Source: Planctomycetota bacterium (lineage in GTDB: Bacteria > Planctomycetota > Planctomycetia > Gemmatales > Gemmataceae). From it: a stretch of DNA of 64,000 bases. The notes under the pieces are model-generated. The model searched no databases, was not told where the DNA came from, and saw nothing but the letters and a program-made list of their open reading frames with translations. Below, piece after piece: positions 1 through 39,706 of the stretch. The stretch covers positions 124,001 to 188,000 of the forward strand of contig JAIOPV010000039.1 in the NCBI GenBank assembly GCA_021413735.1, written 5' to 3'. Each line of letters opens with the position of its first letter. Positions within the stretch are counted from its first letter, which is position 1. The position numbers and the translations under genes were made by a program.

Positions 1-2354
1 AGCACGTGCTCGACCGATTCTCGCGCTTCGTAGCCGTGCGACTCGTGTGGCAACAGCACCAACCGCACTGTGCCACCGTTCGCTCGCACGGCTGCGTAGA
101 GCCTTTCACTTTGCACAGTAAACGTGCCGGGGTTGTTATCAGCAGCGCCGTGAATAAGCAGCAGCGGCTCGTTTATTTTGTTCGCATGGTTGAACGGCGA
201 CATCTGAGCGTAGACCGCCGGCGCTTCCCAGAAGGTGCGGCGTTCATTCTGGAAGCCGAACGGCGTCAGCGTGCGATTGTATGCGCCACTGCGAGCAATG
301 CCCGCTTTGAAGAGGTCAGAGTGCGCCAGCAAGTTCGCCGTCATGAACGCGCCGTAACTGTGCCCCATAACTCCTACGCGGCTGGTGTCGATGCCGAACT
401 CGCCAGCCTTGTCGATTGCCGCTTTCGCGTTCGACACGAGTTGATCCACGAAGGTATCGTTCGCCGTCGCGGGCGGCCCCACAATCGGCATCGACACTTC
501 CATCACGGCGTAACCTTGCGCCAGGAAGAACAGATGCGAATAGCCACCGATTGCGGTAAATCGCAGTGGCGAACCCGTGACCTGGCCCGCGGTATCGGCC
601 GAGGCGAACTCGACGGGATACGCATAGAACACAGCCGGAATCTTCTCGCTGTCCTTGGTGTGGCCGGGTGGCAGGTGGAGCGTGAAGCTGATCGTCGTGC
701 CGTCGGCACGCTTCGTGGTGACGAGTTGCTTCGTGGCCTTGCGCAGTTCTGGGGCCGGGTCCGTGTTCTTGGTCAACTGCACTTCGTGGTTCGCGTCGCG
801 GAAGAAGTAGTTCGGCGGCTCTGTCGGCGATTCGCGGCGAATCAGGAACCGCGTACCCTTCGCATCGAGCACGGCAACCGCTTCTTCGTACAGGTTATCG
901 GCACAGTGGAACACGCGAGTCGCCTTGCCGGTCTTCACGTCGAACCGATCAAGGAACGGCCGATCTCCCTTGGGCGATGCACCCGGACCAGCAAGCCAGA
1001 TGGTGTCGCCAGCGGGATCGCCGCCCGTTCGCAGCACCCGATGACCGCTTGGCAGCGTGCGACCGATCGTGCTGCCCGGATCGCCGTAGCGGTCTTGCGT
1101 TGAACGCTCGAACAACACCTTCGGCTCGGTTGCCGCGAAGAGAGAAGTTGTCGGTGCGAGGAACGTGCGGCTCCACTTGCGTTCGCGGTCGTAGTCGCGG
1201 ATCAGCATTCGGTTCCCGGTCGGGAAGAAGTCCATGCCGGCGAAACGCTGTTCGAGTTTCATCAACTCGGTGGTGCGGCCTTCGACCGCCGAGGTGAACA
1301 CCGCTTCGCGGTGTTCGACTTTCTTTCGCGGGTCGCCGTCGTCTTGCGCTTCGACCCAGATCAGCGTGTGGGGTTGTGTCGGCATCCATCGCACGGAACG
1401 CGGACCGGTCGGCACACCCTCGATGGGCACCTTATCTTGCAGCGGCAACTCGGCGATAGTTCGCACGGGCTTGCCGTCCTTGCCCCACACTTCGACGACG
1501 CGCGGGAACGCCGAGTATGGCTGGAGGTACGAGAACGGTTTCTGCACGCGGGTGACGAGGAAGTATTCGCCGTCTGGGGAAGGATCAGCATCGAGGTAGA
1601 TGCCAGGCTCGCCGAGGCGAACAACTTCCTTTTCCTTACCGCCGGGGGTCACGATCGCAAGCTGCGACGTCGTGTAATACGAGAACAGTGCTTCGTCGTG
1701 CGGGTTCTGCAATAAGTCTTGGTACGTTCGCACGGGAGCGGCTTTGCCGTCGCTTTCTTGCACGACGGGACCGGTTGGTGCGATCGGCTTCGCGGGTGCT
1801 TCGCCGCGTTTCTCGGGGATGGTCTGCACGATGAGCGATTCACTGCCTGGCATCCACTGGAACGCATCGCCGATCGTCGCGTTCAGCAAAACGTCGGGCA
1901 CACGCACGAGAATGCCGCCGGTTCGCAGTTCCGCGACCCACAACTCGATTCCCTTTGGCGTCGTGATCGTGAGCGCGAATCGTTTCCCGTCCGGCGACCA
2001 GTACGGAAAGCCTGCCTTGCCGTGCGCCGGCACCACGATCGGAGTCGGCTTGCCATCAGGCAACGCCAGAAGCGTCAACCCGTTGATGACGAAAGGACGG
2101 GCAGGGCCATTTGTCTTGGGATCAAGACGAAGACCCGCGAGCCGCAACTGAGGAGCTGCGACTTCTTCGATGGATGGGTAGCGTGAACTTTGCACGAACA
2201 AGAGCGTGTCGCCGACCGGACTGAGCGACAAGCTCGGCGGTGGCGGCACATCGAGGATGTCTGTGATTGCTTTAGGCGGGCGCTGGTAGCTTTGAGCGTT
2301 TGCGTCGATCGGCAAGATCACTGCGAGTACCCCGCAGAACAATGCGCGGAACAT
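1..2354 (-). CDS. S9 family peptidase, glutamyl-endopeptidase-like (3' end beyond window)
   Basis: About 784 residues are visible; the C-terminus runs off the left edge. The start ATG at 2354 follows a GGAGAA Shine-Dalgarno site and begins a hydrophobic signal-like stretch ending near ANAQS, so the enzyme is probably exported. The N-terminal two thirds read as a beta-propeller. The last third is an alpha/beta-hydrolase domain with nucleophile motif GHSYGAF near residue 666, a GADDNNPGT stretch near residue 737 supplying the acid residue, and HESHGY near residue 770 supplying the His. The motif spacing and the YAYPVEF segment match S9 glutamyl endopeptidases better than classical prolyl oligopeptidase (family knowledge, from memory). 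Likely role: periplasmic peptide degradation. It is divergent from the ThuA gene at 2454, with a short promoter region of about 100 bp between them. Confidence 0.85.
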   Translation of the reverse strand, partial: MFRALFCGVLAVILPIDANAQSYQRPPKAITDILDVPPPPSLSLSPVGDTLLFVQSSRYPSIEEVAAPQLRLAGLRLDPKTNGPARPFVINGLTLLALPDGKPTPIVVPAHGKAGFPYWSPDGKRFALTITTPKGIELWVAELRTGGILVRVPDVLLNATIGDAFQWMPGSESLIVQTIPEKRGEAPAKPIAPTGPVVQESDGKAAPVRTYQDLLQNPHDEALFSYYTTSQLAIVTPGGKEKEVVRLGEPGIYLDADPSPDGEYFLVTRVQKPFSYLQPYSAFPRVVEVWGKDGKPVRTIAELPLQDKVPIEGVPTGPRSVRWMPTQPHTLIWVEAQDDGDPRKKVEHREAVFTSAVEGRTTELMKLEQRFAGMDFFPTGNRMLIRDYDRERKWSRTFLAPTTSLFAATEPKVLFERSTQDRYGDPGSTIGRTLPSGHRVLRTGGDPAGDTIWLAGPGASPKGDRPFLDRFDVKTGKATRVFHCADNLYEEAVAVLDAKGTRFLIRRESPTEPPNYFFRDANHEVQLTKNTDPAPELRKATKQLVTTKRADGTTISFTLHLPPGHTKDSEKIPAVFYAYPVEFASADTAGQVTGSPLRFTAIGGYSHLFFLAQGYAVMEVSMPIVGPPATANDTFVDQLVSNAKAAIDKAGEFGIDTSRVGVMGHSYGAFMTANLLAHSDLFKAGIARSGAYNRTLTPFGFQNERRTFWEAPAVYAQMSPFNHANKINEPLLLIHGAADNNPGTFTVQSERLYAAVRANGGTVRLVLLPHESHGYEARESVEHV

Positions 2355-2453
2355 GGCTCGTTTCTCCGTGCGTGATTCAGGCAGTGTACCGTCTCGGGTG
2401 TCCGGCGTATACTGACGCGCATTCCCACCTAACCTCTCACCCCTGAAACTGCC

Positions 2454-3473
2454 ATGAAACTGTCGCGTCTGTTCGCCGTCCTCGCCTTGTTCGCGCTGTC
2501 GCCGTTCGCCCCCGCCGCTGACGAATCCAAGCCGGTCGTCCTCGAAGGCAAGGACGGCGCGGGGAAGGGTAAGCACGTCGTTCTCATCAGTGGCGACCAG
2601 GAATACCGCTCCGAGGAAGCCATCGCACAGCTTGCGAAGATCCTCGCGAATCGCCACGGATTCAAGTGTACCGTGCTGTTCACCACCGATCCGAAAACCG
2701 GCACCGTGAACCCGACCATCAACAACATCCAAGGGCTTGAAGCTCTGAAAACCGCCGACCTCATGGTGATCTTCACGCGGTTCCTCGACCTGCCCGATGA
2801 CCAGATGAAGCACATTGCGGAATATCTGGAAGCGGGCAAGCCGGTAGTCGGGCTTCGCACTTCGACGCACGCCTTCAACATCCCCGGTGGCAAAACGTAC
2901 TCGCGTTTCAGTTGGGGCAGCAAGGATAAGGGCTGGGAAGGCGGCTTCGGAAAGCAGGTTCTCGGCGAAACGTGGGTCGCTCACCACGGCAACCACGGCA
3001 AGGAAGGCACTCGCGGGAAGTTCACCGAGGCTGCTGCGAAGAGCCCCATTTTCAAAGGCATCAAGGACGGCGAAGTTTTCGGCACGACGGACGTGTACAC
3101 CGCGAAGCCGCCATCCGATAGTACGATTCTGCTGATGGGCGAAGTGACCGAGACTCTGAAGCCAGACTCGGCAGCGGTGGCAGGCAAGAAGAACGACCCG
3201 ATGATGCCAGTGGCGTGGACGAAGCCGTACAAGCTCGGCGAAGGCAAGGAAGGGCGTGCGTTCTGCACAACGATGGGGGCGTCGCAGGATTTGGAATTCG
3301 AGGCGACACGCCGCATGATCGTGAACGCTTGCTACTGGGCGGCGGGCTTGGAAGACAAAATTCCGGCGAGTTCGGATGTGATGCTCGTGGGCGACTACAA
3401 GCCGACCCCATTCCGTTTCAAGGCCGGCAAAGACTGGCAACCGGGCATGACCCCTGCCGAGTTCTTGAAGTAA
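2454..3473 (+). CDS. ThuA-like domain protein, secreted
   Basis: 339 residues with an N-terminal signal peptide (hydrophobic core LFAVLALFALSPFAPAA). The body is a ThuA-like class I glutamine-amidotransferase-like fold: VVLISGDQEYRSEE near residue 43, ADLMVIFTRFLDLP, and GKPVVGLRTSTHAF, the region that usually lines the pocket. ThuA-like proteins are numerous in planctomycetes and are often linked with carbohydrate metabolism, but no reaction is firmly established. A strong inverted repeat follows the stop (3522-3559), so the gene is probably monocistronic. Family assignment is confident; function is not. Confidence 0.85.
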   Translation: MKLSRLFAVLALFALSPFAPAADESKPVVLEGKDGAGKGKHVVLISGDQEYRSEEAIAQLAKILANRHGFKCTVLFTTDPKTGTVNPTINNIQGLEALKTADLMVIFTRFLDLPDDQMKHIAEYLEAGKPVVGLRTSTHAFNIPGGKTYSRFSWGSKDKGWEGGFGKQVLGETWVAHHGNHGKEGTRGKFTEAAAKSPIFKGIKDGEVFGTTDVYTAKPPSDSTILLMGEVTETLKPDSAAVAGKKNDPMMPVAWTKPYKLGEGKEGRAFCTTMGASQDLEFEATRRMIVNACYWAAGLEDKIPASSDVMLVGDYKPTPFRFKAGKDWQPGMTPAEFLK

Positions 3474-3521
3474 TGTCGCATCTCGGCGAGCGAACCTCAA
3501 CACATGTGTTGGGGTCTGTCC

Positions 3522-3559
3522 ATCGGGGTTCCGGCGTCGTGAAATGCCGGAACCCCGAT
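3522..3559 (+). terminator. Perfect 14-bp inverted repeat, probable terminator
   Basis: Perfect 14-bp arms (ATCGGGGTTCCGGC and its complement) flank a 10-nt loop in the gap between the ThuA gene and pnkp. There is no T-run, so termination strength is uncertain. It separates two genes on the same strand. Confidence 0.55.
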
Positions 3560-3578
3560 CGTTCGCGAGGTGTTGACT

Positions 3579-6176
3579 GTGCCCATTCCCGTGCCCGAAT
3601 TTGGTCTCGTTCTCCTCATCGGCCCCAGCGGGTGCGGCAAATCGTCCTTTGCTCACAAACACTTCAAACCCACCGAAATCCTGTCGTCGGACTTCTTTCG
3701 CGGCATGTTGTCCGACGACGAAATGAATCAGCACGCATCTGCCGATGCCTTCGAGGTGTTGCATCTCGTGTGCAGTAAGCGGCTCGCGGCCGGTCGGTTC
3801 ACGGTCATCGACGCGACCAACGTTCGCCCCGAGAGCCGCAAGACGTTCATCGAAATGGCTCGCAAGTTTCACGTGCAGTCGGTCGCGGTCGTGTTCGACT
3901 TCTCGGCCGAGTTCTGTCACGCGCGCAACCAGCAGCGACTCACCGAACGGCCGTTTGGGCCGCACGTCACGCGGCACCACGCGGCCGATCTGGCGCGTTC
4001 GATGGGTCATCTCGAAGAGGAAGGCTTTCGCCGCGTAACCGTGTTCCGCACGGAAGAGGAAGTGAACGCGGCCGAGTTCGTGCGGTACACGCTGCCCGTG
4101 AACAAGCGAAGCGAACACGGTCCGTTCGACATCATCGGCGACGTTCACGGTTGTCTTCCGGAACTGCTGGCGCTGTTGGAGAAGCTCGGCTACACCGTGC
4201 AAAAGACCGAGACCGGCTACGACGTTGGCCATGTCGCGGGACGTAAGCTGGTGTTCGTTGGCGACCTCTGCGACCGTGGCCCCGATACGCCGGGTGTCTT
4301 TCGGCTCGTCATGGATATGACGCGGCGAGGGGCTGCGTATTGCGTGCTGGGGAATCACGACGACAAACTGCTGCGGTGGCTCAAGGGCACTACCGTCAAG
4401 CTGACACACGGACTCGCACAGTCGGCGGAGCAATTCGAGAAAGAGACGCCAGAGTTCCGCGAGAGCGTGATTGAATTCGTCACCAAGCTGCCAAGTCACT
4501 TAGTTCTCGATGACGGAAAGCTCGTCGTCGCGCACGCAGGTTTGCCAGCGGAGATGCACGGTCGCGTGTCGGGGAAGGTGCGAGCGTTCGCACTCTATGG
4601 CGACACGACCGGCGAGAGCGACGAGTTCGGTTTGCCCGTGCGTCGCAACTGGGCCGAGCACTATCGCGGCCGTGCGACTGTGGTGTATGGCCACACGCCG
4701 ACGCTGACGCCGACGTGGGAGAACCGCTGCATCTGCATCGACACCGGTTGCGTTTTCGGTGGCGCACTGACCGCATTGCGTTACCCCGATCCGGAGTTGG
4801 TTTCGGTGCCCGCCGAGCGTGCGTATGCGGAGTCGAAACGGCCTCTGGTGGCCCCAAGTGTAGCCGCGACCCGAAGAGGTGCGAGCGAGACATGCGAGGA
4901 CGCAAACGCTCCCCTTCGGGTCGCGGCTACGCAAATCGCACCCGATTTACTCGATCTCGCCGATGTGAGCGGGCGCCGCACGATCGAAACATCCTTCGCG
5001 GGGAAGATCACGATTCGCGAAGAGAACGCTGCGGCAGCGCTCGAAGTGATGTCGCGATTCGCGGCCGATCCACGCTGGCTCATCTACCTGCCGCCGACGA
5101 TGTCGCCAGTGGAAGCATCGCCATTGCCTGAGTTCCTCGAACACCCCACTGAGGCGTTCGACTACTTCCGCCGCGAGGGTGTTCAGTCGGTCGTGTGCGA
5201 ACAGAAGCACATGGGCTCGCGAGCCGTCGTGATCGTGTGCAAGGACGAAGACAGTGCGAAGCGCCGGTTCGGCGTCAGCGGCGAGAGTGGCATCGTTTAC
5301 ACCCGCACGGGCCGCCGCTTCTTCGACGACACCGCGACTGAAGCGAAGTTCCTCGAACTGATTCGCTCGGCGATCACTGAGCGTGATTGGTGGTCGAAGT
5401 TCAACACCGACTGGTTCGCATTCGACGGCGAACTGATGCCGTGGTCGGCGAAGGCACAGGAGTTGTTGCGTCGGCAGTACGCCGCGACCGGCAGCGCCGC
5501 ACGAGCCGCACTCGCTGAGGTGGACGCGGTATTCCACCTGACGAACGAGCCAACGAAAGACTTGGCGCGTTTGTTGAATCGCTTCACGGCGAAGCTCGAA
5601 AACGCAGATCGGTTCGTGTCAGCATATCGTGGTTATTGTTGGCCGGTGGAATCTGTCGCTGACCTGAAGTTTGCGCCGTTCTTCTTGCTCGCTACGGAGG
5701 GGAAACTGTACTTCGACCACTCACACGCCTTGCACATGAAGATGCTCGGGGAACTCGCTGGTGGTTCGTTGCTGCTTGCAACGCCGTTTCGCATCGTCGA
5801 ACTGGCCGACGCTGTACAAGTCGAAGCTGCGACGCAATGGTGGCTCGACCTCACGAACATCGGCGGCGAGGGAATGGTCGTCAAGCCGCTCGATGTGCTG
5901 TCACGCGGCAAACGGTTCTTCGCACAGCCTGCGCTGAAGGTGCGGGGTCGCGAATACCTCCGCATCATTTACGGGCCCGATTATCTGATGCCCGAGAACC
6001 TGACGCGGTTGAAACATCGTGCGGTCGGCTCGAAGCGCGGACTCGCAGCCCGCGAGTTCGGTCTGGGAATGGAAGGGCTCGAACGCTTCGTGAAGGGCTT
6101 GCCATTGCGACACGTTCACGAGTGCGCTTTCGCAGTGCTGGCACTGGAAAGCGAACCCATCGACCCACGACTCTAA
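3579..6176 (+). CDS. pnkp: Polynucleotide kinase-phosphatase with ligase domain (bacterial Pnkp)
   Basis: 865 residues from the GTG at 3579, chosen because GCGAGG lies 8 nt upstream; a GTG at 3570 would add three residues. Three domains are visible in order. The kinase has P-loop GPSGCGKSSF at about residues 15-24. The metallophosphoesterase domain has GDVHGC, GDLCDRGPDTPG and LGNHDDK, at about residues 185-275. The C-terminal nucleotidyltransferase (ligase-type) domain has lysine motif QKHMGSRA near residue 545 and later motifs GEGMVVKP and KVRGREYL. This is the architecture of bacterial RNA-repair Pnkp: 5'-OH phosphorylation, removal of 2',3'-cyclic phosphate, and adenylylation. The usual partner Hen1 is not adjacent and not in this window. 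A palindromic repeat adds about 24 residues in the linker between phosphatase and ligase domains (4860-4930). Confidence 0.93.
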   Translation: MPIPVPEFGLVLLIGPSGCGKSSFAHKHFKPTEILSSDFFRGMLSDDEMNQHASADAFEVLHLVCSKRLAAGRFTVIDATNVRPESRKTFIEMARKFHVQSVAVVFDFSAEFCHARNQQRLTERPFGPHVTRHHAADLARSMGHLEEEGFRRVTVFRTEEEVNAAEFVRYTLPVNKRSEHGPFDIIGDVHGCLPELLALLEKLGYTVQKTETGYDVGHVAGRKLVFVGDLCDRGPDTPGVFRLVMDMTRRGAAYCVLGNHDDKLLRWLKGTTVKLTHGLAQSAEQFEKETPEFRESVIEFVTKLPSHLVLDDGKLVVAHAGLPAEMHGRVSGKVRAFALYGDTTGESDEFGLPVRRNWAEHYRGRATVVYGHTPTLTPTWENRCICIDTGCVFGGALTALRYPDPELVSVPAERAYAESKRPLVAPSVAATRRGASETCEDANAPLRVAATQIAPDLLDLADVSGRRTIETSFAGKITIREENAAAALEVMSRFAADPRWLIYLPPTMSPVEASPLPEFLEHPTEAFDYFRREGVQSVVCEQKHMGSRAVVIVCKDEDSAKRRFGVSGESGIVYTRTGRRFFDDTATEAKFLELIRSAITERDWWSKFNTDWFAFDGELMPWSAKAQELLRRQYAATGSAARAALAEVDAVFHLTNEPTKDLARLLNRFTAKLENADRFVSAYRGYCWPVESVADLKFAPFFLLATEGKLYFDHSHALHMKMLGELAGGSLLLATPFRIVELADAVQVEAATQWWLDLTNIGGEGMVVKPLDVLSRGKRFFAQPALKVRGREYLRIIYGPDYLMPENLTRLKHRAVGSKRGLAAREFGLGMEGLERFVKGLPLRHVHECAFAVLALESEPIDPRL
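4860..4930. repeat. Palindromic repeat inserted in frame within pnkp
   Basis: A 71-bp imperfect inverted repeat. The arms begin GTAGCCGCGACCCGAAG and end with the reverse complement CTTCGGGTCGCGGCTAC. It is translated in frame as about 24 low-complexity residues (starting VAATRRGAS) at about residues 427-451 of Pnkp, between domains. It looks like an intergenic-type palindrome that entered a tolerant linker without breaking the frame. Confidence 0.7.
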
Positions 6177-31395: not shown

Positions 31396-33666
31396 CTATT
31401 CCGCTGAAGACTGGAATACTTTCTCGAACCGAGGTGCGGCGGTCACCAATGCGGCCACCAACGCCGGGTCGAATTGTCCCACCGATTCCGTGACCATCAT
31501 GCGGATCACACGGGCGTGCGACAAAGCTGGCCGGTATGGGCGGCGAGAGCGGAGCGCATCGTAGACGGAGATGAGGCCGACCACCCTGGCGGCCAGAGGA
31601 ATCTGCTCGCCCCCCAAGCCATCCGGATATCCTGCTCCATCCCATCGCTCGTGGTGAGATTGAATCACCTCGATCGCAAGCGATAACACAGACATCTCGG
31701 CGGGGCACTTCGCGGCGGTCGCCTTCACCCACTCGGCACCCATGACGGGATGCGTCTGGATCACCATCCGTTCGTGGCTATCGAGAACACCAGGTTTGTG
31801 GAGGATTGTCTGCGGCACTGCAATCATTCCGATGTCGTGGAGTGGGGCCACGACCTCAAGCAGATCCAAGTACCGATCGTCCTTCAATCGACTGTAATCT
31901 CCTTTGTCGGGGGCAGCGGACGCAAGCGCTCGCGTATATCGACCCAGTCGCTCGCCATACGCCGGACCGAAAGACAGGATTTCGCGAAACATCTGGGCGC
32001 AGAGCCCCGTCATGACCCGAACCGCGGATGAATTAGATCCCGAGTCTGACGCTGGCGTGATGCCCGGTGGCATTGGCGTTCGGGTTAAATCTGCAACGGC
32101 GGCTCGCATCGTCAGCGCGGCGGCACGGGCCGGTTCACCGGCCTTGCGTCCAAGCAGGCCACGGACCCGTGACCTGAACTCCGCGCGTGAGAACGGTTTC
32201 GCCAAGAAATCATCCGCGCCAGTCGCGAGCAAACCGCCGAGAGCCTCCGGTGGAATCACACCAGACATCAGCAGGATCATTGGTCGCTTGTCGTCGGAAC
32301 CAACGTTCCGAATCGACTCGATCAGTTTGTCGCCGGTCACTCCTGGGAGGTTCACATCGAGAATGATGAGGTCGGCCCGTTGCTTTTGGAGAAGTTCCTG
32401 AAGTTTGTCCCCGTCGCCGGCATCTGAGACGTGGAACTCATCTCCGAGGTAGAGGCGGAGCAGTTTGCGGAGGGGAGCATCGTCGTCCACGATCACGACG
32501 TTCGGAATCTGAATCGCTGCGTCGGTGGGAACCTTCTCGGTTGATTGAGGAACCCATCGACTCAGACCAGAGAGGGAAATGCCCACCACGCGTGCGCTCG
32601 GTGGTCGTGCGTCGGGGTCTGTGCTGAGCATCCGGTTGACGAGCGTGCAAAGCTCTTCGGGCAACTCGGGGCGAATCTGCTGAACGATCGGTGGCGGTGC
32701 GGTCAATCGTGTTTGGAGATCGCGGAGAAGATTGCCGGTATCTGGGAACGGATCACGCCCGGTCAATGCCCAGTACATCGTCGCTCCGAGGCTGAACAAG
32801 TCGGCTCGCGCATCCACGGCATGCGGATCGCGCGCTTGCTCGGGAGCCATGTAGCCAATCGTGCCCAATACTGTTCCTGGCTCGGTCAACTGCCGATGTG
32901 GGTGCAACGCCAATCCGAAATCGAGGAGTTTCGCCTGCCAGTCAGGCGTGATGATGATGTTCTGCGGCTTGATGTCTCGGTGAATCAGGCCGTTGCGGTG
33001 AGCCTCTGCCAGCGCTTCCGAGATTTGTCGGAACAGATCACAGACGCGGTTCACGGGTAACGGCCCGCGGCTTCGGATGAAGCCGTCGAGATCCTCGCCA
33101 TTGACCAACTCCATGACGTAGTAGTCACGAATTGGCCCAGTCGGATCGGCGGAGCGACTGCGACCCGCATCGAGGCACGAGACCAAGTTCGGGTGATGCA
33201 ACCGAGCCGCAGCGCGTGCTTCTGCATGGAATCGACGCAGCAACCGGGGACAGGTATCGACCGTGTTCACGAAGACCTTCACCGCAACGTCGCGTCGCAA
33301 GTGGATGTGTTCGGCTCGGTACACGACTCCCATCCCACCACGGCCAATCAACCCGAGCACACGATACTGACCCAGCATCAGATCTTTGGTTGCTCCGTCG
33401 CGAATCATGTCTGACTGGAATCCCGTCAGCAGATGGAGGGAAACGAGTTTCTCCAGCATCGCGACTTGTGATTCGGATGAATACAGCTCCAATCGAATCA
33501 TCGGATCGAGTTCGTCCCACTCCTCAGGCAGGATGATGGATCGTTCGATGAGATCATTCAGGAACGTCGCGAGGCGTCCATCCCCGCCCGGAGGTGAGCC
33601 AGGTGAGCCGAGGACGAGATCGACGGTATCGCCGATTCGGCGGCCAGGGTTAAGTGGGAGGGGCAT
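31396..33666 (-). CDS. Ser/Thr protein kinase - receiver - HD-GYP phosphodiesterase fusion
   Basis: 756 residues. An N-terminal helical segment precedes a Hanks-type kinase at residues 98-365: GLIGRGGMGVVY, AVKVF, catalytic HRDIKPQNI, DFGLA and APEQ. A receiver domain follows (VVIVDDD, ILDVNLPG, KPFS) at about 390-510, then an HD-GYP domain with LHDIGMI and HHERWDGAGYPDGL at about 560-750, predicted to cleave cyclic di-GMP. All key catalytic residues are present. Joining Ser/Thr phosphorylation, phosphoaspartate and c-di-GMP turnover in one chain is unusual. First gene of the four-gene signalling operon, 37 bp before RedB. Confidence 0.92.
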   Translation of the reverse strand: MPLPLNPGRRIGDTVDLVLGSPGSPPGGDGRLATFLNDLIERSIILPEEWDELDPMIRLELYSSESQVAMLEKLVSLHLLTGFQSDMIRDGATKDLMLGQYRVLGLIGRGGMGVVYRAEHIHLRRDVAVKVFVNTVDTCPRLLRRFHAEARAAARLHHPNLVSCLDAGRSRSADPTGPIRDYYVMELVNGEDLDGFIRSRGPLPVNRVCDLFRQISEALAEAHRNGLIHRDIKPQNIIITPDWQAKLLDFGLALHPHRQLTEPGTVLGTIGYMAPEQARDPHAVDARADLFSLGATMYWALTGRDPFPDTGNLLRDLQTRLTAPPPIVQQIRPELPEELCTLVNRMLSTDPDARPPSARVVGISLSGLSRWVPQSTEKVPTDAAIQIPNVVIVDDDAPLRKLLRLYLGDEFHVSDAGDGDKLQELLQKQRADLIILDVNLPGVTGDKLIESIRNVGSDDKRPMILLMSGVIPPEALGGLLATGADDFLAKPFSRAEFRSRVRGLLGRKAGEPARAAALTMRAAVADLTRTPMPPGITPASDSGSNSSAVRVMTGLCAQMFREILSFGPAYGERLGRYTRALASAAPDKGDYSRLKDDRYLDLLEVVAPLHDIGMIAVPQTILHKPGVLDSHERMVIQTHPVMGAEWVKATAAKCPAEMSVLSLAIEVIQSHHERWDGAGYPDGLGGEQIPLAARVVGLISVYDALRSRRPYRPALSHARVIRMMVTESVGQFDPALVAALVTAAPRFEKVFQSSAE

Positions 33667-34053: not shown

Positions 34054-34863
34054 TCATCGCGGCTGCCAGACGAGCAACTCGCCTTTGCCTGGAACCGCAG
34101 TGTCGCCAGTGTATCGGCGATACGTTCCCTCGCGGACATCGTGCGGAATGGCGAACCCCAACTTCGTGAGGTGCTTCGTGTAGATGCCCATGAACATCGG
34201 GTTGTAGTCGCAGGCGTGCGTAAACGTCGGCAACAATCGCAGCGGCTTCATGCTGATGATGGTGCCGCGTTGCATCCACGCACCCGTTCGCAACTCAGCT
34301 CCGCTCATCAATACGATTGTGCCGCCCTTCATTTGTAAGCCCGCGAAGTCACGCACCGGCCCCCGCACCGCGATGAGGCCGCGTTTCATGCGCATTCCGA
34401 GTTCGATGCCTGCCGAGCCTTCGACGAGAATCGTGCCGCCGCTCATGCCGGTCATGTTGCCGCGATACGCACAGCCGAGTTGTCCGCCAGCGTTGCCGTG
34501 AATGTGAATGCTGCCGCCTGCCATTTCGCCGCCAACCCAGTCGGTCGCGTTCCCGGTCACCTCGATGCTGCCGCCCTTCATGTATGAGCCGAGGTGCATT
34601 CCCGCGTTTCCGACGATTCGGATACGCCCGCGAGTCATGTGCTGCCCGACCCACTTCACTTTCGACAGGTCGCCGCGAATCTCGATGTCTTCGTTGCCGT
34701 CGCCTTCGACTGTGAAGAAGTCATCGAGCCGCATGGAACGCTTGCCGAGCAGCACCGGCAACGCACGAATGGCGTCGCGCGACAGCGGCGCGAGTACATC
34801 CGGACTGAGGGCTTCCGCCTCCAGCGGCACGGTCGTCGGCTCTTTGAGGGTGAGGGTGAGCAT
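34054..34863 (-). CDS. fhcC: Formylmethanofuran dehydrogenase/hydrolase subunit C
   Basis: 269 residues from ATG 34863; an upstream in-frame extension overlaps the end of fhcA and is less likely. The core is a beta-helix of GxxxGxxMxxGxIxIxGxxG repeats (GQHMTRGRIRIVGNAGMHLG, MAGGSIHIHGNAGGQLG), the FwdC/GltS-C fold that connects subunits A and B. The end (YNPMFMGIYTKHLTKLGF, YRRYTGDTAVPGKGELL) matches bacterial FhcC. It follows fhcA by 11 bp. Cytoplasmic complex acting between formyl-methanofuran and formate or CO2. Confidence 0.93.
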   Translation of the reverse strand: MLTLTLKEPTTVPLEAEALSPDVLAPLSRDAIRALPVLLGKRSMRLDDFFTVEGDGNEDIEIRGDLSKVKWVGQHMTRGRIRIVGNAGMHLGSYMKGGSIEVTGNATDWVGGEMAGGSIHIHGNAGGQLGCAYRGNMTGMSGGTILVEGSAGIELGMRMKRGLIAVRGPVRDFAGLQMKGGTIVLMSGAELRTGAWMQRGTIISMKPLRLLPTFTHACDYNPMFMGIYTKHLTKLGFAIPHDVREGTYRRYTGDTAVPGKGELLVWQPR

Positions 34864-34874
34864 GGGTTTGCTGC

Positions 34875-36515
34875 TTACTTTCCGCAGTAACTGCAAGGCT
34901 GCACGGTGAGACCATGCACGCGCTCGCAGCTCACGGGGTAGTTCTCGAACGACATCGTGTAGTGCTGTTGGAACAGCGGTCGCATGTAATCCTCGATGCT
35001 CTCGTCGTACTGCGGCTTCACTGCGAACTGGCGACCGGCCCCCGATTTCCGCAACTCGCCTTCCTCGACAATCACATCGCCACCCTTGATGACGTAGCGA
35101 GGGTGCGCGAACATCTTCGCCACGTCGGTGTTCTCGTTGTAGATGGCGATGTCGGCGTCTGCACCGATGCCCAGGTGACCTTTCTGCGTGAGACCGAGCG
35201 TTCGTGCTGGCCCCGCCGACGTGATGATTGCGATCTCGGCGAGCGTGTATTCGCGGGTGAGTTCCGGCAACGTCATGCGGCTCAGCGTGCTATCCGGGAA
35301 CTGCTTCAACTGCTCCTTGCGGAAGTCCGCGTTCATGAGCAGTTGCACGATTTCGGGGTAACGCCAGAAGGTCGCGCCGTTGGGGTGATCGGTCGTTAGG
35401 CAGATTCGCCAGGGGTCAGTAATGAGCAGCAGCAGCTCCAATCCGACGGCCCACTGCACCGCGTTGACGACGTTCTTCTCCTTGTAAACGTAGGGCACGA
35501 CGCCGCAGCCCGTTTCGTTCTCGACGTCAAGGTTGCCCCACTTGCGACCGGTGAGTTGATAGAGCAAGTGCTGCCAGGGACCATCCGCCGTGACGGTGAC
35601 GGTGTTGCCGAACAACACGGCTCCCGCATCGCATGTGAGGTTCGTGTTGGCGTTGAAGTGCTCGGCAATCTGTACTGCTGCGGAGCGCATCGTGAACCAG
35701 TCGTCACCGCCGTAAGCGTGATATTGCAAGTGGGCGAGGTGAGCACGGCGACCTTCCAGCACCTTCATGGTTTCGATGGTGGTGCTGGCGTTGCCCGGTG
35801 CGCCGAGGTTGTTGCAGTGCAAGTGAACCGGGTGCGGCAACTTCAGTTCGTCCGCGATCCGTGCGAGAGCCGCGACGATCTTGGAAGGCGTCACCTTCTT
35901 GTAGCCAGGCACGACATCGGACAGACCCTTGCAGTCTTTACCCCACTTCCAGCCAGCGACGCCACCGGGGTTCACGGCCTTGATTCCGTAGGCTTTCGCG
36001 GCCCAGATGTACCACGCGACGACTTCCTTGGCTCGTTCGGTTTCGTCGTTTTCGAGCAGGTCGAGGATAATTTCGTTGTTCGCCATCAGCACGCAGCAAG
36101 TCTTGTCGATGATGGGCGTGTCGTGAAGCTCTTCGTGCGTGTGCTTCGCGGACAGCACCGGAACGGCGGCTTCGTTCGCCGTGGTCCAGCCCATGCCAGC
36201 GTAGACGTAGCCGGTGGCGAACGTGGTGGGGGTGGTGCCGATGATACCGGCGCGACGGTACTCACTGTGAAAGATGGGCGTGGCTTTGCGGTGCTGTTCG
36301 GGGATGAGTCCGCGAGCGAAGTTGAGAGCCGCGCCGCCGATGTGCGTGTGAACGTCGACGCCGCCGGGGAAGACGATCATGCCGGTGGCGTCGATGGTGC
36401 GTGCGCTGGCTTCGACATCCGCGACGATCTTGCCGTCGGCGATGCAAACGTCGCGCACGACACCGTTGACGCCGTTCGCGGGATCGAAGACCTTACCGTT
36501 CCGAATCCGAAGCAT
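34875..36515 (-). CDS. fhcA: Formylmethanofuran dehydrogenase/hydrolase subunit A
   Basis: 546 residues from ATG 36515 (MLRIRNGKVFDPANGVNG). The longer frame to 36710 is translated palindrome sequence and is rejected. It is an amidohydrolase-fold subunit with metal ligands HTHIGG near residue 57, KAVNPGGVAGWKWGKDC around the carboxylated Lys, PVHLHCNNLG, and the catalytic Asp region LTTDHPNGA. The C-terminal CSYCGK is a CxxC. It hydrolyses N-formyl-methanofuran to formate plus methanofuran in the family. Separated from fhcB by a 190-bp palindrome. Confidence 0.95.
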   Translation of the reverse strand: MLRIRNGKVFDPANGVNGVVRDVCIADGKIVADVEASARTIDATGMIVFPGGVDVHTHIGGAALNFARGLIPEQHRKATPIFHSEYRRAGIIGTTPTTFATGYVYAGMGWTTANEAAVPVLSAKHTHEELHDTPIIDKTCCVLMANNEIILDLLENDETERAKEVVAWYIWAAKAYGIKAVNPGGVAGWKWGKDCKGLSDVVPGYKKVTPSKIVAALARIADELKLPHPVHLHCNNLGAPGNASTTIETMKVLEGRRAHLAHLQYHAYGGDDWFTMRSAAVQIAEHFNANTNLTCDAGAVLFGNTVTVTADGPWQHLLYQLTGRKWGNLDVENETGCGVVPYVYKEKNVVNAVQWAVGLELLLLITDPWRICLTTDHPNGATFWRYPEIVQLLMNADFRKEQLKQFPDSTLSRMTLPELTREYTLAEIAIITSAGPARTLGLTQKGHLGIGADADIAIYNENTDVAKMFAHPRYVIKGGDVIVEEGELRKSGAGRQFAVKPQYDESIEDYMRPLFQQHYTMSFENYPVSCERVHGLTVQPCSYCGK

Positions 36516-36553
36516 GGAGAGGTTCCAAAAGCCGAGGCATTTCGCGTTGGTTT

Positions 36554-36743
36554 TAGTCCCGGAGGGACGTCGGATGGTAGCCAGGGGTGGAGCGAAGCGC
36601 AACCCCTGGTCCGCAAGCAATGCGAGCCTCCCATCGCCTCCGTCGCCCCTCCGGGGCTTGTTCTCTTTTCGCATCGGGTCCAGGGGTTGCGCTCGCGTTG
36701 CTCGCTTCACCCCTGGCTACCGTCCGACGTCCCTCCGGGACTA
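36554..36743. repeat. 190-bp intergenic palindrome between fhcB and fhcA
   Basis: Long inverted repeat. The left arm starts TAGTCCCGGAGGGACGTCGG and continues through GCCAGGGGTGGAGCGAAGCG to about 36609. The right arm, from about 36671 to 36743, is its near-perfect complement with a small insertion. It begins 6 bp after the fhcB stop. The element could end or attenuate transcription between fhcB and fhcA, and its spread explains the spurious N-terminal extension of the fhcA frame. Confidence 0.85.
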
Positions 36744-36749
36744 AGGCAC

Positions 36750-38114
36750 TTACGCCATCTGGGGGGCGGTCGTCGGCACCGGATCCCACGGTTTCTTCCG
36801 CTGCACCGCCTCGCGAATGCGACGCATCACTTCCTCATCCGTCGGATACGGCGACTTCAACGGCGGTCGCAACGGCAACGGTATCTCGTCCATGCGGTAC
36901 ACAGTGCCCGGCGCTGTGATGCCCGTCGCGGCCGTCGTTATGTGAACCCGCGACAGGCGGCTCGTGTGCGTCACCTTCGGGTCCAGCACAATCGTCGGCG
37001 TCCGCTTTAAGTGCTCGATCGCGGGCTTCGGCATCGTGGCGCCAGGGTCGGCTCCCAACACCAATGTCGCGTCGTTGTCGCCTCGCACGAGGAGATCTAT
37101 GGTGGAGTATTCGCCAGGGTTGAAACGCGGATAACCACGATTCAGGTTGATGCCAAACGGATACGACAGCGTGTACCGCATAATCACGTCGGCACCCGTC
37201 ACGTTGCCGTGACCACGCATCGGCATCGCCACGAACTTCGTGAAGGCGTTCATCTCCGCTGCGAGGGTCAGTGCCGCTGCCGAGTTCATGTGCTTTCCGC
37301 GAGTCATGGAGAGACCCATGCCGAAGAATAACACCCCGAACTTCGCCGCTTTCATGCGGGCCACGAGGTCTTGCAACTGCTCGAGCTTGAGGCCGGTTTC
37401 GGCGATCGCATCGAGGTTCACACGCTGGCCTTTCACCAGGGCGCGAAGGATGGTTAGCACCTCGAAGTCCTTGCCCGGACGCACTTGCAGGAAGATGTCG
37501 GCGGCTTTCGCGCTCATGGTTTCGCGGATGTCCACGAGAACCATCGTGCGGTCCTTGCGACCACGCGGAATGAACTTGCCCTTCGGCGTCAGCGCGTACT
37601 TGGTGAAGTGACGAGGATGACACTCCGCGGGGTTGCCCCCCCAGTAGATGATGAAGTCGGCCCGATTCTTGACTTCGCCCAGCGTACAAGACACTTTACC
37701 GCCCAACTGGGCGGCTATCTCGGTTGGACCGTGTCAGAGGGATGTGTGGCTGTCGATTACGCCGCCGACCAACTCCGCAAGCCAGACCGCTTCGCGTTGA
37801 GCTTCGCAGGTCGTGTTGCTCAGGCCATACACGAGCGGCATGTGGGCCGCGTACAGAATCTCGGCCGCAGCCTCGACAGCGTCATCGACAGTCGCTTCTT
37901 TGCCGTCGATCAGGGCGTCGGGGTAGAGGTGTTCGGCGGTGTGATTCTTGAACCACGCTTCGCCGAGGTTGCAGGCGCGTTTCGTTTCGACGATTCGCAC
38001 GTCGTCCGAGTGAAGCTCGATGTCATCGCAGACGCACCCGCAGAATGTGCAGGTCGCGTTCTTGGTGACGGTCAACTCGCGCTTCACGCTTTCGGGCATC
38101 GCGGCGGTAGTCAT
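36750..38114 (-). CDS. fhcB: Formylmethanofuran dehydrogenase subunit B with in-frame UGA (candidate selenocysteine)
   Basis: One frame of 454 codons from ATG 38114, read through a TGA at 37734-37736 (codon 127). The N-terminal part carries the [4Fe-4S] ligands in CTFCGCVCDD (Cys22, 25, 29) with a fourth Cys at 48 (RACNLGEAWF). Around the TGA the sequence reads VIDSHTSL-UGA-HGPTEIAAQ. In archaeal FwdB/FmdB/FwuB this position is the Mo/W-ligating Cys (SVCHGP) or Sec. The rest (CTLGEVKNRADFIIYWG, CHPRHFTKY, FFGMGLSMTRGKHMN, MPMRGHGNVTG, DPGATMPK) is intact over 327 codons in the same frame with no other lesion. A GC-rich hairpin follows the TGA at 37698-37715. Best reading: selenocysteine insertion. 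Alternatives: a nonsense mutation or a base error of a Cys codon. Confidence 0.85.
37698..37715 (-). promoter_or_regulatory. Candidate bacterial SECIS hairpin downstream of the fhcB UGA
   Basis: On the mRNA strand, 18 nt after the UGA, a 7-bp stem (GCCGCCC / GGGCGGT, one G-U closing pair) is capped by a 4-nt loop AGTT. The loop starts 25 nt downstream of the UGA and its second base is G. As I recall, bacterial SECIS elements need an upper stem of at least four pairs, a loop about 16-37 nt from the UGA, and a G in the first two loop bases; all three are met. The bases just after the UGA (CACGG) also match E. coli fdhF. Confidence 0.6.
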
Positions 38115-38206
38115 GAGGTGCGGCTCGTGTTGGTCACAGCGGAGGGAGAGGGAACACTGACCGGGCTGGCGGAACCGTCCGAACCGGACGGCGGGATGAC
38201 GAAACT

Positions 38207-38362
38207 TCACCCAAGGGCAAGCCCGATGCAACTACCTCTGGTGCGGCGCGGCATGAATCGCCCGGCCTCGACCTCTTCCCAACCAACGGGCTGTTCCGCG
38301 TTGGTGGAAGGTTGCTCGGCCGCGACTTCCTGCACGTCTTTGCGTTCGGTGTTATCGTGCAT
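38207..38362 (-). CDS. Small 51-residue protein coupled to fwdD
   Basis: 51 codons starting MHDNTERKDVQEVAAEQ and ending MPRRTRGSCIGLALG. The ATG is 1 nt after the fwdD stop (TGAAATG), and a strong GGAGG site lies 9 nt upstream inside the fwdD 3' end, so translation is well supported. It falls between fwdD and fhcB in the same operon. The acidic N-terminus and the basic, Gly-ending C-terminus look like a small accessory or docking peptide. No family recognised with certainty. Confidence 0.65.
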   Translation of the reverse strand: MHDNTERKDVQEVAAEQPSTNAEQPVGWEEVEAGRFMPRRTRGSCIGLALG

Positions 38363-38363
38363 T

Positions 38364-38699
38364 TCAAACTACCTCCACTTCCACATCCCAACCCTTTGAG
38401 GTGGGCATTCCAGTGCCGTCGGTTTCGCCGCCCATGAGTCGGCATGTCGGCGGCCCGTAGGGCACGAACAGCAACCCCCGCGGAACATTCGCCTCTTTGC
38501 ACTGAAACTCCGCGTCGCCGATCTCCGTTCGCACGCGAATCGTCGCCCCACTCACGATGCCCAGCTCCTTCATGTCGTCGGGGTGCATCGTCATCGTGTT
38601 CACGATGGCATTGTACTCGTCGCCGTCCTTGCCGACGTTGAGTTGTTGGCCTTGCTTGTTCGAGCGAATCGGCATCAGGAGAAAGTGCATACCGGCCAT
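38364..38699 (-). CDS. fwdD: Formylmethanofuran dehydrogenase subunit D, molybdopterin-dinucleotide-binding
   Basis: 111 residues from ATG 38699 (AGGGA 5 nt upstream). It matches the small MGD-binding subunit of archaeal formylmethanofuran dehydrogenase: MTMHPDDMKELGIVSGATIRV, then LFVPYGPPTCRLMGG and the end TGMPTSKGWDVEVEV, the conserved TGMPxxKG segment that contacts the pyranopterin. Its presence next to an fhcB with intact cofactor ligands argues that a Mo- or W-pyranopterin is really bound. First gene of the minus-strand cluster, divergent from ftr. Confidence 0.88.
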   Translation of the reverse strand: MAGMHFLLMPIRSNKQGQQLNVGKDGDEYNAIVNTMTMHPDDMKELGIVSGATIRVRTEIGDAEFQCKEANVPRGLLFVPYGPPTCRLMGGETDGTGMPTSKGWDVEVEVV

Positions 38700-38797
38700 C
38701 AAGTTCCCTCAGCGTGGCGAGAATTGCATATTACCGGTTGCGGCGACGGGGGCAAACGAATACACGATTAACTATCACACGCCGGAGAGCTGCGACC
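38700..38797. promoter_or_regulatory. Divergent promoter region between fwdD and ftr
   Basis: 98 bp separate the two divergent starts. The segment is locally AT-rich around 38730-38780 (GAATTGCATATTACC and TACACGATTAACTATC). Both the fwd operon and ftr are probably driven from here; exact -10/-35 boxes cannot be assigned confidently. Confidence 0.4.
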
Positions 38798-39706
38798 TTG
38801 CTAACCGTCAATTCCGTCCCGATTGAGGACACATTCGCCGAAGCGTTTCCGATGACCGCCGCCCGCGTGCTGGTCACGGCCGAGTCAATCGGATGGGCAC
38901 GCATCGCGGGTCAAACCGCCACGGGCTACGCGGCCAGCGTCATTGGGTGCGACGCCGAAGCCGGCATCGAACGCGAACTCTCGGCCGACGAAACCCCTGA
39001 CGGCCGCCCAGGCGTGTCGCTGCTGTTCTTCGGTTTCAGTCGCGATGGACTTCAGAAAGCCGTCGTGAATCGCGTCGCTCAGTGCGTCCTGACGTGCGCG
39101 ACAACCGCGTGCTTCAACGGCGTGGCTGGCGACCCTGGGCGGTCGATCAAGGTTGGCGGAATGCTGCGTTACTTCGGCGACGGCTGGCAGATCAGCAAGT
39201 TGCTCGACGGCAAACGCTACTGGCGAATGCCGACGATGGACGGCGAGTTCCTGTGCGAAGAGACGTTCGGCACCGTGAAGGGCGTCGGCGGCGGCAACTT
39301 CCTGATCCTCGGGGAAACGCAGGCGTTGGCACTTACGGCAGCGGAAACCGCGGTCGAAGCGATCCGCAAACTTCCGGGCGTGATTCTGCCGTTTCCGGGT
39401 GGCGTGGTTCGTTCGGGCAGCAAGGTTGGCAGCAAGTACAAGGCGTTGAAGGCCAGCACGAACGATGCGTACTGCCCGACACTTCGCGGCGTGGTGAATT
39501 CAGCCCTTCCGGATGGCGTGAACGCGGTGTACGAACTCGTGTTCGATGGCCTCGATCTCGCGACGGTCGAGAAAGCGACATGGGAGGGAATTCTGGCTGC
39601 CACGCGTTGCCCAGGCATTCGAGGCATCACCGCCGGGAACTACGGCGGCAAACTCGGGCCGCACCACATTCATCTGCGGAAGCTGGTTGAAGGATCGACG
39701 ACTTGA
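38798..39706 (+). CDS. ftr: Formylmethanofuran:tetrahydromethanopterin N-formyltransferase
   Basis: 302 residues from the TTG at 38798, which follows GGAGAG by 8 nt and gives an N-terminus (LTVNSVPIEDTFAEAF) that aligns with archaeal Ftr (xINGVEIEDTFAEAF). The long ATG-started frame adds 28 unrelated residues. Other conserved segments are QTATGYAASVIGCDAEAGIE, CVLTCATTACFNG and the Gly-rich C-terminal region (NYGGKLGPHHIHL). It transfers the formyl group from formyl-methanofuran to tetrahydromethanopterin in the cytoplasm. Called FhcD when part of the Fhc complex. The stop is 4 bp from that of the convergent gene. Confidence 0.94.
   Translation: MLTVNSVPIEDTFAEAFPMTAARVLVTAESIGWARIAGQTATGYAASVIGCDAEAGIERELSADETPDGRPGVSLLFFGFSRDGLQKAVVNRVAQCVLTCATTACFNGVAGDPGRSIKVGGMLRYFGDGWQISKLLDGKRYWRMPTMDGEFLCEETFGTVKGVGGGNFLILGETQALALTAAETAVEAIRKLPGVILPFPGGVVRSGSKVGSKYKALKASTNDAYCPTLRGVVNSALPDGVNAVYELVFDGLDLATVEKATWEGILAATRCPGIRGITAGNYGGKLGPHHIHLRKLVEGSTT

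Follow-up and report, generated by a model that had tools for sequence, protein, structure and literature searches.

An in-frame UGA codon in the gene for subunit B of a planctomycete formylmethanofuran dehydrogenase (fwdB, also called fmdB) very probably encodes selenocysteine (Sec). The gene lies in the window, the whole stretch of 64,000 nucleotides analysed here (Planctomycetota bacterium, family Gemmataceae; contig JAIOPV010000039.1, positions 124,001 to 188,000), and positions below are those of the window. By computation we established its reading frame, the conservation of the UGA in related genes, a downstream hairpin resembling a bacterial Sec insertion sequence (SECIS), the presence of the Sec machinery and the surrounding gene cluster. 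Decoding of the UGA as Sec had been proposed in a preliminary description of this DNA, and conservation of the TGA, the hairpin, the sel genes and the ordinary use of TGA as a stop elsewhere now support it. The gene and the codon are:

36750..38114, minus strand: fwdB/fmdB (formylmethanofuran dehydrogenase subunit B), one UGA read through, 454 residues, TIGR03129
37734..37736, minus strand: in-frame UGA, proposed Sec-127 at the molybdenum/tungsten (Mo/W) ligand position, from structure alignments and TGA in 108 copies

The fwdB frame runs from 38114 to 36750 on the minus strand and counts 455 codons including the stop; its sole interruption is the TGA at 37736-37734, and the next in-frame stop is the TAA at 36752-36750. 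As described previously, the two open reading frame (ORF) halves (38114-37737 and 37733-36750, minus strand) share one frame with only the TGA between them, and together they give a full-length FwdB: the read-through protein scores 486 bits against TIGR03129 (curated cut-off 327.8) over residues 19-437, which places it in this family. In a Pfam scan its only match, to molybdopterin oxidoreductase, stayed below the cut-off (20.7 vs 24). The UGA had also been assigned to the catalytic metal-ligand position, and the comparison of three PDB alignments bears this out, since residue 127 aligns with Cys in 8rja_B and 5t5i_B and with 'X', a non-standard or unknown residue, in 9sfi_Q. In subunit B, Mo/W is bound by Cys or Sec (PMC11656701; here and below, papers cited by PMC number are mostly represented by excerpts of their text), and the UGA at the aligned position would provide such a redox-type ligand as Sec. 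The four cysteines of the N-terminal [4Fe-4S] cluster known from subunit B (PMC7331816) are present as C22, C25, C29 and C48, as assigned from the alignment; they are kept in 163/163 copies compared and thus do not discriminate between subunit B types.

The TGA is conserved well beyond this genome. We examined 110 homologous loci (L023-L132), of which 109 were readable at the position (L131 stops short of it) and gave 111 copies: TGA stands at the ligand position in 108, with 72-100% identity to the window protein, and the remaining three carry TGC or TGT at 56-58% identity. Loci L023-L052 and L053-L130 come partly from the same records, hence we count by distinct 75-base stretches, of which the 108 TGA copies represent 86. 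Within the class, 297 genomes were scanned and at least 62 contain a close TGA-bearing relative (74-100% identity, mostly full length); two of these, G030 and G073, consist of a single contig. We read the codon directly in 38 of the 62 (30 + 8), and the other 24 rest on a tally of one TGA. Outside the class, five genomes carry this form among the 392 phylum genomes scanned (G408, G437, G581, G593 and G612, one TGA each), and the codon was read in two of them, G437 and G581, which both also have the CAG TTG apex described below. The preliminary description had judged a random nonsense change at just this codon improbable, and had named scattered stops in relatives as a sign to the contrary; the alignment it called for reveals the same TGA kept in 108 copies, which is not chance, and one extra stop each in only two of them (L088 and L116). 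These few copies may be degraded or contain errors. Furthermore, Cys is aligned at the UGA position in 40 distinct homologue copies, the counterpart by which a selenoprotein gene is recognised.

Immediately downstream of the UGA, we found a hairpin formed by conserved codons:

37698..37715, minus strand: proposed bacterial SECIS hairpin, 7-bp stem, 4-nt loop AGUU, -13.6 kcal/mol
37704..37709, minus strand: invariant CAG UUG of the SECIS apex, Gln-Leu codons +9/+10 after the UGA, 86/86 distinct sequences

The bacterial SECIS model requires a loop of 3-9 nt, a stem of 4-16 bp, a G at loop position 1 or 2, a distance of 16-37 nt from the UGA and a free energy of -7.5 kcal/mol or lower (PMC13188914). 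The hairpin lies within each of these limits, with its 4-nt AGUU loop, G in second position, 7 bp, 25 nt between UGA and loop, and -13.6 kcal/mol, and the RNAalifold consensus over the 86 distinct sequences is exactly the hairpin 37715-37698. Its codons are unusually constrained: TTG accounts for 18.3% of leucine codons elsewhere in the same genes vs 86/86 at codon +10, and the mean normalised synonymous entropy is 0.36 over codons +6 to +12 (7 sites) vs 0.76 (standard deviation 0.17) at 136 sites outside +1 to +14. When the 24-nt hairpin stretch was folded, -7.5 kcal/mol or lower was reached by 86/86 Sec copies and by 1/35 distinct Cys copies. Because the hairpin is favoured by the peptide itself, its strength as evidence comes from the invariant codons and from this contrast with the Cys copies, which encode a different peptide.

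The genome also contains the whole set of Sec genes that the preliminary description had proposed to look for. selA (556.3 bits, contig C129), selB (336.2 bits, or 379.5 with its neighbour in frame, contig C3), selD (383.7 bits, contig C209) and the tRNA-Sec gene selC (72.6 bits, anticodon TCA, contig C76) are present on four different contigs. Across the class, selA scored over the cut-off in 60/62 TGA genomes vs 99/235 others (Fisher p = 9e-17, with genomes treated as independent though related; for selA in G156 and G164 the E-values, 2e-137 and 7e-135, served for the count). In the same TGA-bearing set, selB was over the cut-off in all 62 and selC in 58, the latter above 60 bits in 54. TGA otherwise serves as an ordinary stop: it ends 23 of 38 long, largely non-overlapping ORFs of the window (some of which may not be genes), as well as fwdC, fwdD, ftr and a Gly-type paralogue of fwdB in the same genome. 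No selenoprotein formate dehydrogenase was found among the 8 TIGR01591 match rows of this genome, in which only fwdB holds an internal TGA.

Several observations nevertheless weigh against decoding as Sec. Covariation in the hairpin is weak and insufficient alone as proof: 98.5% of cells pair, but 602 cells hold one double change, at one pair, and 36/500 shuffles do as well. When the peptide was recoded at random with synonymous codons, 360/5000 trials gave an equally stable fold. The hairpin core was present in 86/86 of the 24-nt folds, but it was missing from the minimum-energy structure in 5/86 of the 54-nt folds (L025, L030, L101, L111 and L125). Rfam gave no SECIS match over 36000-39000 at E up to 1, and the hairpin was located by reading and folding. 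Finally, two TGA genomes lack selA over the cut-off (G145 has no match and G256 only one at 3.1e-9), and 8/62 lack a tRNA-Sec match above 60 bits. These eight are multi-contig assemblies that may simply be missing the gene; the tRNA-Sec matches of 47-52 bits may correspond to other tRNAs.

The Sec-type fwdB is embedded in a cluster of genes for the other subunits of the complex:

38364..38702, minus strand: fwdD (molybdopterin-dinucleotide-binding subunit), start codon unsure, PF01568 41.2 bits vs 26.8
34875..36515, minus strand: fwdA/fhcA (amidohydrolase subunit A), start chosen by eye, TIGR03121 695.7 bits vs 392.75, scanned as 34875-36521
34054..34896, minus strand: fwdC/fhcC, start codon unsure, TIGR03122 270 bits vs 130.65
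38714..39706, plus strand: ftr/fhcD (formylmethanofuran-tetrahydromethanopterin (H4MPT) formyltransferase), start codon unsure, TIGR03119 452.4 bits vs 292.6

On the minus strand the gene order is fwdD, fwdB, fwdA, fwdC, with ftr divergent from these four genes. The Fhc complex of methylotrophic bacteria likewise has A, C and Ftr partners. With PF01568 over its cut-off, 38364-38702 qualifies as subunit D of the formylmethanofuran dehydrogenase complex; its only NCBIfam match was NF042908 FwdD, at 68.9 bits and below the cut-off of 175 of this 'exception' model. Of the 11 window proteins that we scanned, none was recognisable as FwdF- or FwdG-like. Elsewhere in the genome, a methenyl-H4MPT cyclohydrolase (418.1 bits, cut-off 228.8) suggests that the remainder of the one-carbon (C1) pathway is plausibly present. 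Two sub-threshold matches to the Acido-Lenti-1 RNA family (36680-36742, plus strand, 34.2 bits; 36555-36590, minus strand, 24.4 bits; gathering threshold 37) both fall in the intergenic stretch that separates fwdB from the chosen start of fwdA. Further along, 31396-33666 (minus strand) is predicted by Pfam to encode a single protein made up of three fused parts: Ser/Thr kinase, response-regulator receiver and HD domain.

We then compared the forms of subunit B. For this, we kept copies whose alignment began no later than query residue 25 and extended at least to residue 400, and counted identical proteins once, which left 163 rows (shorter copies, such as L129 and L155, were dropped); the Cys and other-residue copies were chosen by hand and are not a random sample. 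The ligand residue is Sec in 91, Cys in 40 and another residue in 32 (16 Gly, 3 Thr, 3 Ser, 3 Ala, 2 Glu, 2 gaps, 1 Tyr, 1 Asn and 1 Gln). fwdD was found within 3 kb upstream of 85/91 Sec copies, that is 85 of the 87 that could be judged (the two without are L045, with 1.5 kb covered, and L118, with 6 kb covered; four were left unjudged), and of 29/40 Cys copies, or 29 of 39 judged (10 without, one left unjudged). Upstream of other-residue copies it was found in only 2/32, and in both cases the copy is of Thr type and forms a tandem with a Sec copy. Absence of fwdD here means none at 40 bits or more in the upstream DNA covered, about 1.5 kb for most other-residue copies, so that a diverged or distant fwdD would escape. 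In a quick maximum-likelihood tree, 91/91 Sec copies fall in one clade (SH-aLRT 99), beside a small, less supported group (86) of 7 Cys, Thr, Ser and Gln copies; the deeper joins are unsure, with long branches. Within this planctomycete Sec clade, loci L083 and L092 come from bins titled Acidobacteria and may be misbinned contigs or cases of gene transfer.

The genome under study holds both kinds of subunit B. In addition to the Sec copy of the window, which retains the UGA at the ligand position, it has a Gly copy at this position, L160 (G000:C129:1-5500, positions 3184-1937, minus strand, TGA stop), which has no fwdD in 2.3 kb upstream and shares contig C129 with selA, at a distance of about 13 kb. 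We had expected Gly-type copies to have lost the [4Fe-4S] cysteines, which is not so: they are retained. By inference from ligand residue and fwdD, the Sec and Cys copies, mostly with fwdD, would be real dehydrogenases, and the Gly and other copies, mostly without it, would be scaffold-type FhcB subunits lacking the ligand Cys or Sec.

Some genomes combine the forms in tandem. In L200 (G149:C360), a Sec copy (1972-3333) is followed by a Cys copy (3472-4764) that is about 57% identical to the window protein, an arrangement that recalls the pairing of selenium and non-selenium enzymes in Methanopyrus. In L162 (G133) and L163 (G193), a Thr-type subunit B stands between fwdD and the Sec copy. G187 (L201), of the same genus, has a Ser-type copy only and no fwdD in the 6.5 kb covered, a pattern that joint loss of the Sec copy and fwdD would produce.

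How could the UGA be used? We infer the steps from SelB-dependent insertion to the metal bound, catalysis and its direction. SelB carrying Sec-tRNA(Sec) would recognise the mRNA hairpin 37715-37698 just downstream of the UGA, so that ribosomes would insert Sec at residue 127 rather than terminate and would produce full-length FwdB. The selenium of FwdB would then ligate Mo/W of the bis-pterin cofactor, and FwdB together with FwdD, FwdA and FwdC would make up a functional dehydrogenase for formylmethanofuran (or formyl-methylofuran). In this complex, hydrolysis by FwdA would release the formyl group as formate, which FwdBD would oxidise to CO2; alternatively, the reactions would run in the opposite direction.

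Other readings of the UGA were considered. Under the standard code the protein ends at residue 126, as it would if the TGA were a true stop in a pseudogene or a sequencing error masking a Cys codon (TGT/TGC), and the extra stops of L088 and L116 would fit such a state. Nevertheless, either is very improbable when the same TGA is shared by 86 distinct sequences and 108 copies at 72-100% protein identity, with the single-contig genomes G030 and G073 among the carriers, with both the protein sequence after the TGA and the hairpin conserved. A genome-wide reading of TGA as an amino acid such as Trp or Gly would also place a TGA inside a conserved gene, but we give it almost no credence, given that TGA ends 23/38 long ORFs of the window, fwdC, fwdD, ftr and the Gly-type paralogue. 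The halves of FwdB might instead be made as two separate proteins that assemble, and an internal TTG start is available at 37706; but this TTG is the SECIS-apex codon, starting there would omit the HGPTEIAAQ stretch after the ligand, and in 86 distinct copies the halves lie in one frame and part at the same codon, that of the metal ligand, so we hold a split FwdB to be highly unlikely. On these grounds we rejected a pseudogene, a base error, a general recoding of TGA and a split protein alike.

An alternative of another kind accepts Sec insertion and questions its role: the complex could be of the purely hydrolytic Fhc type, with Sec having no catalytic function. In methylotrophic bacteria the Fhc complex yields formate and FhcB is a scaffold without the Mo/W-bis-pyranopterin guanine dinucleotide cofactor (PMC10100899), and here ftr is adjacent to the cluster. 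However, the distribution of fwdD (85/87 Sec and 29/39 Cys copies judged, but 2/32 other-residue copies, both in tandem with a Sec copy) and the strong conservation of the UGA and the hairpin codons make this unlikely. The window protein is homologous to methylotroph FhcB and differs from it in keeping the ligand residue and FwdD; in our comparison the Gly copies fit the scaffold described in PMC10100899, and the Sec and Cys copies do not.

Selenocysteine decoding of this gene is not without precedent. The preliminary description was not aware of a Sec-containing formylmethanofuran dehydrogenase in planctomycetes, but one exists: PMC4807772 (2016) reports that planctomycete P2 (Rhodopirellula) and two unclassified bacteria have an fmdB with Sec; P2 has an operon fmdD-fmdB-fmdA-fmdC and complete Sec-insertion genes, and Gly-type fmdB homologues are described from G. 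obscuriglobus and others. The window cluster shares with P2 the gene, bacterial Sec and the D-B-A-C order, and the Gly-type homologues of that paper resemble the Gly paralogues found here. The Sec fmdB of the window is therefore not the first of its kind in planctomycetes. What the present analysis adds is its wide distribution in Gemmata-titled and many other planctomycete lineages, the single Sec clade, the SECIS, and the split between Sec/Cys copies, mostly with fwdD, and Gly/other copies, mostly without it. In the archaeon Methanopyrus kandleri, the Sec-dependent formylmethanofuran dehydrogenase (named in PMC4807772 and PMC9312934) likewise has subunit B with Sec as the Mo/W ligand; archaeal SECIS elements lie mostly in the 3' untranslated region (PMC13188914), whereas that of the window is a bacterial-type hairpin within the coding region of a bacterium. 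The textbook example of a bacterial molybdoenzyme with Sec, formate dehydrogenase alpha, belongs to the same superfamily and has a Sec Mo/W ligand and a SECIS directly after the UGA (PMC13188914), but the window protein resembles it only weakly (TIGR01591, 47 bits vs a cut-off of 666.25). The present loci contradict the statement in PMC5020050 that fwdD is not present in Planctomycetes. On origins, PMC7331816 argues that Sec is the ancestral ligand, and PMC10100899 that FwdB is archaeal in origin and was transferred to bacteria. A bacterial Sec-FwdB is not named in the excerpts of PMC1242214, PMC1088965 and PMC1794560, the terms sought are absent from PMC12013277 and PMC5029168, and among the matches listed in the openly licensed literature we found no later work on the planctomycete distribution of Sec-FwdB.

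These findings bear on how planctomycete genomes are read. The standard code cuts the gene in two, and therefore a central C1 enzyme is likely misannotated in dozens of planctomycete genomes. The ligand residue together with fwdD provides a simple sequence rule by which bacterial FhcB of the scaffold type can be told from likely formylmethanofuran dehydrogenases. Tentatively, and with less confidence than in Sec decoding itself, we suggest that planctomycete formyl-carrier C1 metabolism may exist in two forms, a redox form (Sec/Cys FwdB with FwdD, to CO2) and a hydrolytic form (Gly/other FhcB without FwdD, to formate); with one of each in this genome, selenium supply could possibly decide whether C1 units end as CO2 or as formate in a bacterium that is not a methanogen. 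With the pattern of ligand residue and fwdD, selenium becomes a control on planctomycete one-carbon metabolism that can be tested.
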